Positions 84-2,741 of a DNA stretch of 23,803 nucleotides are shown here, in pieces. Numbering within the stretch: the stretch's first letter is position 1; the number at the start of each line of letters is the position of its first letter. The translations under genes were made by a program, and so were the position numbers. The stretch is from a virus. The notes below the pieces were generated by a model that made no database searches, was not told the origin of the DNA, and worked only from the letters and a program-made list of their open reading frames with translations. The stretch covers positions 1 to 23,803 of the IMG/VR virus record IMGVR_UViG_3300023700_000777; one strand, written 5' to 3'.

Positions 84-157
84 TTCTCGATGGTGTAGTG
101 GTAACACAACGGTTTCCAAGTCCGTTGTCTGGGGTTCGATTCCCTATCGGGATGCCA
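84..157 (+). tRNA. tRNA-Trp (CCA), imperfect
   Basis: A full cloverleaf can be folded. The acceptor is TTCTCGA with TCGGGAT (147-153), G73 and an encoded CCA. The D stem is GTGT/ACAC around the classical loop AGTGGTA. The anticodon stem is 109-113 with 121-125, the variable region has four bases, and the T arm has loop TTCGATT. The seven-base anticodon loop 114-120 places CCA (Trp) at 116-118, and G73 fits Trp. Two oddities are U-U mismatches at 1:72 and 31:39, and a G at position 38. The loop also contains TCC, so Gly(TCC) with a disturbed anticodon arm is the alternative, but the D-arm register favours Trp. Confidence 0.75.
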
Positions 158-159
158 AT

Positions 160-242
160 GGATGAGCTGAGCACTGGCGAGCTCAAGTGGCTGTAACCCA
201 CCCGTTCATTCTGTGTTGGTTCAACTCCAACCTCATCCACCA
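160..242 (+). tRNA. tRNA-Tyr (GTA)
   Basis: The acceptor GGATGAG pairs perfectly with CTCATCC (232-238), followed by A73 and an encoded CCA. The D stem is GAGC/GCTC with GG in its loop. The anticodon loop CTGTAAC (191-197) has GTA at 193-195. A 12-base variable region makes this a class II tRNA, as expected for Tyr. The T stem GTTGG/CCAAC encloses TTCAACT. It starts two bases after the preceding tRNA and ends 20 bases before the small terminase start, so the three are probably one transcript. The outermost anticodon-stem pair is an A-C mismatch. Confidence 0.85.
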
Positions 243-262: not shown

Positions 263-913
263 ATGGCTTTAACTGATAACGAAAAAACAAAAGATCGTAA
301 ACCAAAGATACGTTCTGTTGACGCGGGAACTAATCGTTCCTGGTCAGACAAACAAAAGATTGAAGCTGTTCAGTCTTACCTACTTTTAGGCAATCTTGCG
401 CTTACGTCTAGAATTCTTAAAATTCCTGAAATTACCCTCCGTGTGTGGAAAACCACCGAATGGTGGAAGAATGTTGTTGATGACCTACGGCAGCAAGAGT
501 CCATGGAAATGTCAGGACGTCTGCGTAAAATCGTAGATGCTAGCCTGGTGGCTGTCGAAGATCGGTTGCTCAATGGCGACCTGATGTATGACAACAAAAC
601 AGGTCAAATGGTGCGTAAGCCTGTGAACATGCGTGATGCTCACAAGGTTGCTGTTGACCTCATGGACAAGAAAAAGCTTCTTGATAAAGAGGCCACAGAC
701 GGTCCTGTTGAAGCTCAAGAGGATGACCGCTTGCTTAAGTTGGCTGAGAAGTTTGCTAGCTTTGTGCAACAAAAGATTGATAAACCCGTCGAGATTATTG
801 ACGTGGAAGACGTAGAAATAAAGCAGGATAATTCAGAGGCAGAAGGTCAGGCTCATAACCTGAAAGTCGAGGGTTTGAGTCCCTCTCCTGCAACCAATAT
901 TGAGGAACAGTAA
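263..913 (+). CDS. terS: terminase small subunit
   Basis: This 216-residue protein is the probable DNA-recognition subunit of the packaging motor. Residues about 26-75 look like a helix-turn-helix: a DKQKIEAV helix, then NLALTSRILKIPEITLRVWK, matching the HTH layout of phage small terminases. A charged, probably coiled central region (about 76-170) fits oligomerisation, and the acidic tail (about 175-216) is low in complexity. The ATG at 263 follows AAGAGGA (253-259). The stop overlaps the HNH start as TAATG. TerL lies one gene downstream, which supports the call. The oddity is that codons 187-212 lie within a complete tRNA-like fold on the same strand, so the C-terminal tail is probably dispensable or recent. 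Confidence 0.8.
   Translation: MALTDNEKTKDRKPKIRSVDAGTNRSWSDKQKIEAVQSYLLLGNLALTSRILKIPEITLRVWKTTEWWKNVVDDLRQQESMEMSGRLRKIVDASLVAVEDRLLNGDLMYDNKTGQMVRKPVNMRDAHKVAVDLMDKKKLLDKEATDGPVEAQEDDRLLKLAEKFASFVQQKIDKPVEIIDVEDVEIKQDNSEAEGQAHNLKVEGLSPSPATNIEEQ
822..896 (+). tRNA. tRNA with CAT anticodon (Met or Ile2) inside the terS coding region
   Basis: A 75-base cloverleaf lies entirely within terS, in the sense direction. The acceptor AGCAGGA pairs with TCCTGCA (886-892) in six of seven pairs, with an A-A mismatch at 1:72, then A73 and an encoded CCA. The D arm is ATTC/GAAG with the canonical loop AGAGGCA. The anticodon stem TCAGG/CCTGA is perfect around CTCATAA, with CAT at 854-856. The variable loop is AAGTC. 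The T stem GAGGG/CCCTC is perfect, with loop TTTGAGT, where the usual C56 is T. The anticodon stem lacks the three G-C pairs of initiator tRNA, so elongator Met or lysidine-modified Ile(CAU) is more likely. Sequence alone cannot separate these two. Confidence 0.75.
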
Positions 914-1221
914 TGCCTTACATGAAAGATGGCAAGCGCGACTACAAACGTGAAAACGCTTTGTACAACTCTCGCCCAGAACAAATTAAAGCTCGCTCAG
1001 AACGCACAACTCTGCGTCGTGAAGCCAACGCTAAAGGCATCACCCACAAGGGTGACGGAAAAGATTTAGACCATGTCAAACCTCTCTCTAAGGGTGGAGC
1101 AAACACTCTGTCCAATGCCAGAGCCACAACCAAGTCTGCTAACCGCAGCTTTAGCCGCAACGCCGACGGAAGCTTGCGTAACCAACAATCCACCCGCGAA
1201 CGTAAAAGTACACGGAAATGA
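913..1221 (+). CDS. small HNH endonuclease-like protein
   Basis: This is a 102-residue basic protein. Residues 48-80 hold the motif: GDGKDLDH (His54), then N68 in TLSNARATTKSANRS and N77 at the third position. It is thus an H-N-N version of the beta-beta-alpha metal fold. Its small size and position between terS and terL match the stand-alone HNH proteins often found beside phage terminases, some of which help the terminase cut or package DNA. It could instead be a free-standing homing endonuclease. The start overlaps the terS stop (TAATG) and its stop overlaps the terL start (ATGA), which suggests translational coupling. The Arg/Lys-rich ends fit DNA binding. Confidence 0.75.
   Translation: MPYMKDGKRDYKRENALYNSRPEQIKARSERTTLRREANAKGITHKGDGKDLDHVKPLSKGGANTLSNARATTKSANRSFSRNADGSLRNQQSTRERKSTRK
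1218..1221 (+). promoter_or_regulatory. ATGA stop/start overlap, HNH to terL
   Basis: The last base of the HNH sense codon and its TGA stop share ATGA with the first codon of terL. Such overlaps usually indicate translational coupling. No strong Shine-Dalgarno is visible just upstream, only GGAAA-like bases. Confidence 0.5.
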
Positions 1222-2741
1222 ATGTTGCTCTAACAGCGGATGTAGTACAGGGTTTTGTTGGGAGTGTATTATCATCTCGTTTTGATGGTCGTAGTAGCTC
1301 CCCAGACTTCCATCGTGAATGTTGGGAACTCTGCTGTTCCAATGAAAAGTTTGTAGCCATTGCTGCACCTCGTGGTCATGCTAAAAGTACAGGCGTAACG
1401 CTAGGGTATGGTTTAGCCACGCTTCTCTTCCGAGAGCGTAAATTCATGCTTCTTGTTTCAGATACAGAAGCTCAGGCCAGTTTGTTCCTTGGAACATTTA
1501 AACAAGAACTTCAAGACAATCAAGAACTCATTGACTTGTTTGGTTTGAAGCGTAACGAAAAAGGTTTGGTTCAGTTTGTCAAAGACACTGAAACAGACAT
1601 TATAGTTGAGTGTACGGACGGACATAAGTTCAGGATTATTGCTAAGGGAGCGGAACAGAAGCTTCGTGGATTAATCTGGAACGGGTCGCGTCCGGACATC
1701 ATTATGTGTGATGACATGGAAAACGATGAACTTGTTATGAACAAGGAACGTCGTGAAAAGATGCGTAAATGGTTTAAGGGTGCTCTCTTGCCATGTCGCT
1801 CTGACCGTGGTATTGTTCGCATGGTAGGAACCATCCTGCATGCTGACAGTTTGCTAGAACGCATGATGCCCAATCCATCTGACAAGATGACGGTGGTTGA
1901 AGAACTTAAACAATACTCCAAGCGTAAGAGCATGTGGAAGTCGGTTAAATACCGTGCCCACAACTCTGACTTTTCTAAGCTCCTATGGGCCTCTAAGAAG
2001 TCTGCAACAGAGTTTAAGATGCTATATGAGGAAGCTGTCAAAGACGGCACTACAGACATCTACAGTCAGGAATACTTGAATGAGCCAATTGATGAATCCG
2101 TGTCATTCTTCAAAAAGGGAGACTTTCTCCCCATCACAGAAGATGACCGTAAGGCTCGCCTCAATTATTACATTACTGCCGACTTGGCTATTTCAGAAAC
2201 TGAGAAGGCTGACTTCTCCGTGTTTGTCATTGCTGGAGTTGACGAAGATAAAATTATTCACACAAAGAACGTGATTCGTGAGCGTATGGATGGTAAGGAA
2301 ATTGTTGATACATTTCTAGCCCTTCAGAAGCTTTACGACCCTGTTGCCATTGGTGTTGAGGACATGCAAATTTCCAAAGCTATTGGCCCGTTTCTGCGTG
2401 AAGAGATGATTAAACAAAACGTCTTCATAACACTCATGCCTTTGAAGCATGGGGGTAAAGATAAGACCACACGAGCTAGAAGCGTACAGGCGCGTTTACG
2501 TGCTCATGGCATGAAGTTTGACAAAGAAGGTGATTGGTATCCCATCTTTGAAAATGAATGTCTTGCTTTCCCTCGTGGTAAGCATGATGACCAAGTTGAC
2601 GCTTTTGCCTATCTTGGACTGATGCTTGACCAGCTTATTGAAGCTCCCACCAAGGAAGAGTTTGAAGAAGAAGAATACTTTGATGAGTTGCAAAACTCCG
2701 ATTTAAACAACCAAGGACGCGACTCCTACACAGGATATTAA
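1218..2741 (+). CDS. terL: terminase large subunit (ATPase and nuclease)
   Basis: This 507-residue protein is the motor that pumps DNA into the prohead and cuts the concatemer. The ATPase domain shows a Walker A-like PRGHAKST at residues 51-58 and Walker B IIMCDD at 161-166, with an acidic residue (E168) just after. A coupling-type segment, GTILH, follows at about 204-208. The RNase H-fold nuclease domain has its acidic residues at D322 (ITADLA), E381 (GVED) and D457/D458 (KHDDQVDA). Both domains are full length. The acidic C-terminus (480-492) may contact the portal or prohead. The portal gene starts immediately after the stop codon, the usual order. Confidence 0.95.
   Translation: MNVALTADVVQGFVGSVLSSRFDGRSSSPDFHRECWELCCSNEKFVAIAAPRGHAKSTGVTLGYGLATLLFRERKFMLLVSDTEAQASLFLGTFKQELQDNQELIDLFGLKRNEKGLVQFVKDTETDIIVECTDGHKFRIIAKGAEQKLRGLIWNGSRPDIIMCDDMENDELVMNKERREKMRKWFKGALLPCRSDRGIVRMVGTILHADSLLERMMPNPSDKMTVVEELKQYSKRKSMWKSVKYRAHNSDFSKLLWASKKSATEFKMLYEEAVKDGTTDIYSQEYLNEPIDESVSFFKKGDFLPITEDDRKARLNYYITADLAISETEKADFSVFVIAGVDEDKIIHTKNVIRERMDGKEIVDTFLALQKLYDPVAIGVEDMQISKAIGPFLREEMIKQNVFITLMPLKHGGKDKTTRARSVQARLRAHGMKFDKEGDWYPIFENECLAFPRGKHDDQVDAFAYLGLMLDQLIEAPTKEEFEEEEYFDELQNSDLNNQGRDSYTGY

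Follow-up and report, generated by a model that had tools for sequence, protein, structure and literature searches.

In mRNA-tRNA operons of the secG-leuU type, the tRNA follows the stop codon of the protein gene. The E. coli secG-leuU operon, described (Mohanty and Kushner 2008, as cited in PMC3985628) as an RNase P substrate, resembles the locus reported here in that a tRNA is cut, or in our case would be cut, from a transcript also carrying a protein gene; in the terS gene of our locus, however, the tRNA comes before the stop codon. A same-strand CDS ending 21 nt into a tRNA-Met gene is found in Kolesnikvirus Salmonella phage SeKF_13, where the overlap is partial and concerns a small hypothetical ORF, whereas the present tRNA is fully nested in a conserved packaging gene. 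With regard to the tRNA itself, the tRNA-Met (CAU) genes of Xanthomonas phage RiverRider, Ochrobactrum phage ORM_20, Roseobacter phage DSS3P8 and Rhizobium phage RHph_TM39 are 79-83% identical over the full length to one homologue of our tRNA (the copy in locus L018) and share G2:C71, C3:G70, A72, A73 and the CCA end, with either C1.A72 or U1:A72 at the first position, but these genes lie among other tRNA genes and are not annotated within a protein gene. A literature search, with most subscription journals outside its coverage, revealed no published description of the overlap, and we know of no account in which a selected tRNA is nested completely and in frame within a packaging gene that several phages share.

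The DNA under study (the window) comprises 23,803 nucleotides of the IMG/VR virus record IMGVR_UViG_3300023700_000777, and the features relevant to the overlap are compiled in Table 1. The gene order TerS-HNH-TerL-portal, with the portal gene coming after terL, places the putative terS in a packaging operon just before terL. An earlier note, made from the sequence alone, had claimed a complete tRNA-like gene within the terS coding region. Two methods agreed on it: ARAGORN called a tRNA-Met (cat) at 822-896 on the plus strand of the window, and the Rfam tRNA covariance model RF00005 matched 822-893 at 57.0 bits (gathering score 29, E 4.3e-10), the highest score among the three tRNAs of the window. 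The homologous tRNAs described below scored 52.5 and 60.8 bits with the same model. The terS frame (263..913) was found to be open through the whole tRNA, confirming the overlap of codons 187-212 with the tRNA. Since 38% of 74 phage tRNAs from the fetched loci are free of stops in this phase, and 70% are open in one phase or more, reading through a tRNA needs no selection.

Table 1. Features of the window around the terS-tRNA overlap and the evidence on which they are based.
Feature	Position	Strand	Basis
tRNA-Trp (cca), upstream of terS	84..157	+	ARAGORN, Rfam model
tRNA-Tyr (gta), upstream of terS	160..242	+	ARAGORN
Putative terS ORF, 216 aa; core residues 1-187; tail 188-216 from tRNA and spacer	263..913	+	ORF list, alignments, structure model, position upstream of terL
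Codons 187-212, protein and tRNA at once	821..898	+	codon table, rate tests
tRNA, CAU anticodon, encoded CCA, Met type, initiator-like acceptor end	822..896	+	ARAGORN, Rfam RF00005, covariation with L017/L018/L020, comparison of CAU tRNAs
Shine-Dalgarno GAGGAA of the HNH gene, between CCA and HNH start	902..907	+	anti-SD duplex
TAATG, terS stop overlapping HNH start, translational coupling geometry	911..915	+	sequence, frame comparison with relatives
HNH endonuclease-like protein, 102 aa	913..1221	+	PHROG 4590, 1035 and 333 matches; Pfam HNH below cut-off
Terminase large subunit	1218..2741	+	PHROG 38, E 2.8e-80; Pfam Terminase_6C just below cut-off

The name TerS is putative and draws on gene order, an N-terminus resembling a helix-turn-helix and a weakly similar fold. 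The protein matched no PHROG family and no Pfam family above cut-off. Structure modelling with 12 close sequences gave a pLDDT of 50, and with 34 homologues a mean pLDDT of 72.5 was reached. The top Foldseek rows for the model were phage G20C small terminases, at an E value of 0.28 only, and VIA-align returned Z values of 6.3 to the P74-26 and 6.2 to the G20c small terminase, with middling Z values of this kind being common. In the 34-homologue model, residues 180-216 had a pLDDT below 50, and this C-terminal stretch is probably disordered.

In the family alignment, DVEDVEIK is the last motif of the conserved part of TerS, and the tRNA begins within the codon for its final residue, K187; past residue 186, conservation among the homologues thus stops at about residue 187, at the tRNA 5' end. 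In the 75-nt overlap, nucleotide differences amounted to 10.7% (window-L017), 18.7% (window-L018) and 14.7% (L017-L018), compared with 30.7, 32.0 and 28.9% in the terS body (Fisher p 0.0002, 0.02 and 0.008), so that the overlap DNA is 1.7-2.9 times more conserved than the body. The corresponding amino-acid differences were 19, 38 and 35% in the overlap and 27, 29 and 23% in the body, and in these three pairwise comparisons no extra amino-acid conservation relative to the TerS body was detected in the overlap (p 0.48, 0.36 and 0.22). Differences were spread evenly over the codon positions in the overlap (2/3/3 and 3/5/6, versus 48/27/95 and 45/31/101 in the body; p 0.40-0.47 for this contrast); a test for lost protein constraint on this basis pointed in the right direction and was not significant alone (p 0.11-0.47), which is why the contrast between nucleotide and amino-acid rates was used. 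This contrast implies that the tRNA is what keeps the overlap DNA conserved, with the protein sequence changing in its wake. To judge from these alignments, the amino acids of the tail follow the base changes of the tRNA, and the tail is apparently a dispensable by-product.

Two overlapping TerS scans of viral contigs yielded 12 and then 52 loci, of which four (L017, L018, L019 and L020) carry the same tRNA-Met at the same place inside the TerS frame. In the TerS tree, carriers and non-carriers were intermixed: the window groups with L014 and L016, which have no tRNA, and with L015, which has a relic (100/100 support; the nearest is 95% identical), L018 and L020 group with L022, which has none (100/100), and L034, with a tRNA-Trp, groups with L037 and L036, again with none. 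The relic in L015 keeps GGTTTGACTCC-ATCTTCCT-CCGATATAGAGGAA, corresponding to the 3' half of the window tRNA plus the spacer, a match equalled in 0 of 1000 shuffles; it lies in the terS frame and has U56 as in the window. Close TerS homologues devoid of the tRNA are also devoid of its 25-codon tail. Because tRNAs were lost at this site without loss of TerS, the tRNA-encoded tail is not essential to the family. The end of the core at the tRNA, the kin without tRNA and tail, and the dependence of the tail on tRNA bases together favour what the earlier note had offered as its alternative, namely a tRNA gene that drifted into frame once the true terS end had been lost.

Other tRNAs are present at the same border. 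A tRNA-Trp begins on the base directly after the TerS stop in L025 and on the second base past it in L028, and a tRNA-Thr begins on the fourth base past it in L032. With these tRNAs at the TerS stop, and those of L034/L035 in it, the terS 3' junction is a recurrent tRNA site. Upstream, tRNAs are located just before terS in the window, L014, L024 and L039. Larger contigs without any tRNA (49.7 and 46.4 kb) exist, one relative in bacterial genomes (L157, a Pseudomonadota MAG) has no tRNA, and a DNA pattern scan with the tRNA 5' half matched known contigs only. Among cultured phages, the closest relative found was Alcaligenes phage vB_Af_QDWS535, whose TerS is 41% identical, and the overlap is not known from any isolate. 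The explanation we regard as likely, and hold with good confidence, is that of a functional Met-type phage tRNA at a gain/loss hotspot, the soft terS 3' end in a packaging operon, with a protein tail that is tolerated and not needed.

In this explanation, the tRNA lies directly after the conserved TerS end with no stop in phase, so that the frame runs through it and ends at the HNH start. As the promoter scan found no promoter-like site near the tRNA (sites found elsewhere were close to shuffle level), the tRNA should come from the late polycistronic transcript, out of which it would be cut by ordinary host processing, with RNase P acting at 822 and 3' trimming proceeding to 896. RNase P cleavage before 822 would leave a terS mRNA that lacks a stop and retains just the first base of codon 187; the suggestion in the earlier note that excision removes the terS stop codon agrees with the layout, in which the stop is beyond the tRNA. 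The note further has the link of the terS mRNA to the HNH and terL genes cut by excision. The 16 nt from the CCA to the HNH ATG contain the Shine-Dalgarno of the HNH gene, for which anti-SD duplex energies of -6.2 kcal/mol in the window, -2.9 in L017 and -6.4 in L018/L020 were calculated, and HNH and terL need therefore not be silenced. Processing to 896 would leave ATATTGAGGAACAGTAATG with this Shine-Dalgarno retained, and the cut would cost some TerS messages and not the terL message. Full TerS with its 29-residue disordered tail would be made from uncut transcripts or by translation before cutting; since translation can precede cutting, both products could arise from one transcript population. 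The released tRNA would be processed, charged and used as a supplementary or replacement Met tRNA.

A regulated switch, or cis-acting dose control, would go further: each late transcript would yield either the tRNA together with a non-stop terS message that is destroyed, or full TerS coupled to HNH, with tRNA processing in the infected cell setting the dose of TerS (and of HNH) and so adjusting the expression of packaging genes; tmRNA tagging of TerS on the non-stop terS mRNA would be one variant. By the geometry, a single RNA molecule has to yield either a mature tRNA or a terS whose stop is intact, save where translation precedes excision, and L034/L035 likewise have the TerS stop within a tRNA. 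The junction also has coupling geometry, by which TerS translation reaches the HNH start, in the window through TAATG and in L017 through TAA-C-ATG, where a single base separates the TerS end from the HNH start; TerS of L018-L020 extends 116 nt into the HNH gene in another phase. The phase of the HNH start relative to TerS was identical in 14 of 15 loci, with or without the tRNA, the window, which is counted in the 15, being the exception. The constant phase could be a sign that it is important for ribosomes to translate across this stretch up to the HNH start; it fits ribosome delivery from TerS to HNH and is also expected if the ancestor had a stop-N-ATG arrangement and indels are rare. Against a switch, close relatives run the same operon without a tRNA there, HNH retains its own Shine-Dalgarno after the cut, the tRNAs of L025, L028 and L032 are outside terS so that their excision leaves the stop untouched, and selection on the tail was undetected. 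We consider a switch unlikely and conclude that the locus is better described as an unusual overlap of genes than as a demonstrated switch.

Whether the tRNA is alive bears on a further reading, namely that a tRNA which came into frame is now dead or dying and serves merely as TerS coding sequence. The earlier note's account of the cloverleaf held for the anticodon and T stems, which are perfectly paired, and for the CCA end, but not for position 1:72, which is an A.A mismatch, for the D stem, which has three pairs and A.G at 10:25, or for the T loop, in which U56 (window position 876) is present where C56 is near-universal. G18-G19 are present in the window tRNA, and L017 and L018 have C56. 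U56 and the two mismatched pairs would suit a dying tRNA, as would the L015 relic in the terS frame, which demonstrates that decay occurs; U56, which the L015 relic shares, weakens the usual G19-C56 contact, and decay could be setting in along the window lineage. Yet the covariance score is high and, in an alignment limited to three distinct tRNA sequences (window, L017 and L018/L020), 5 of 21 pairs were found changed on both sides (4:69, 27:43, 31:39, 50:64 and 51:63), from which it follows that the RNA fold is selected. Among 500 shuffles, a single one attained five such changes, and none remained when the partner was shifted by 1-3 bases. The only non-forming pairs are 1:72 and 10:25, unpaired in every sequence, and neither the anticodon loop CUCAUAA nor the CCA end varies among the homologous tRNAs. 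A weak or absent 1:72 pair also occurs in other phage tRNA-Met genes and is thus not a sign of damage. A free-energy fold test of the tRNA was weak (z -1.63) and was left out as evidence; the case for more than a chance fold is made by the covariance score and the covariation in homologues, not by thermodynamic folding. We judge a dead or dying tRNA to be very unlikely; the comparison of homologues indicates that 822-896 is most likely a functional phage tRNA gene under selection for its RNA fold. Least credible, and highly improbable, is that the sequence is no tRNA but a tRNA-like element with a role in the mRNA or DNA, either in protecting the 3' end or as an attachment site. Attachment sites made from tRNA 3' halves are indeed used by phages, but here a full tRNA stands in the middle of a structural operon, with compensation in the acceptor stem as well as in the anticodon and T stems; the attachment site was rejected given covariation across the whole tRNA and the invariant anticodon loop.

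Formylation of initiator tRNAs is determined by the lack of a 1:72 pair together with G2:C71, C3:G70 and A73. The acceptor end of the window tRNA reads A1.A72, G2:C71, C3:G70 and A73, and no Watson-Crick pair is formed at 1:72 in any of the homologous sequences (A.A in the window and L017, C.A in L018/L020), with G2:C71 and C3:G70 present. Bacterial initiator tRNA-fMet is thus matched in the 1:72 mismatch (L018 having the standard C1.A72), in G2:C71, C3:G70 and A73, and in the CAU anticodon. It differs from the window-type tRNAs in the D stem, where all three sequences have U11:A24 and not purine11:pyrimidine24, and in the three consecutive G:C pairs 29-31:39-41, a triplet left incomplete by A29:U41 in all three and by 31:39 being G:C, G.U or U.G. 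From these positions, the tRNA is initiator-like at its acceptor end, and it is not classed as an initiator. An identity as tRNA-Ile2 (lysidine) was also considered and is unlikely. C4:G69 and C5:G68, which are determinants for TilS, are absent.

The locus, in which a conserved phage gene contains an entire tRNA in its reading frame, is a clean natural example of one strand translated while under RNA-fold selection, and it shows how a gene end can shift when a tRNA lands at the border. It also reveals tRNA storage in these phages, at a hotspot that flanks terS on either side. Where an annotation pipeline does not allow a CDS and a tRNA to overlap, one of the two genes would be missed or cut short. 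According to a recent idea, as outlined in PMC10264068 and PMC11555353, phage-encoded tRNAs stand in for host tRNAs that defence nucleases have cut; an initiator-like tRNA-Met from environmental phages would fit this idea, provided that the tRNA is used.

Several minor observations were made at these loci. In the window, a terminator-like GC hairpin with a T-rich tail is located at 54-76, just before the tRNA-Trp gene. In L034 and L035 (3031-3105 in both), the TerS stop is formed by U8-A9-G10 of the tRNA-Trp, representing a second form of terS-tRNA overlap. TerS overlaps HNH by 110-119 nt in another phase in L014, L015, L016, L018, L020, L022 and L023, and in other relatives it stops one base short. 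L025 contains, at 1653-2332, a group I intron (Rfam, 61 bits) that seems to interrupt terL and has a 142-codon open frame inside.
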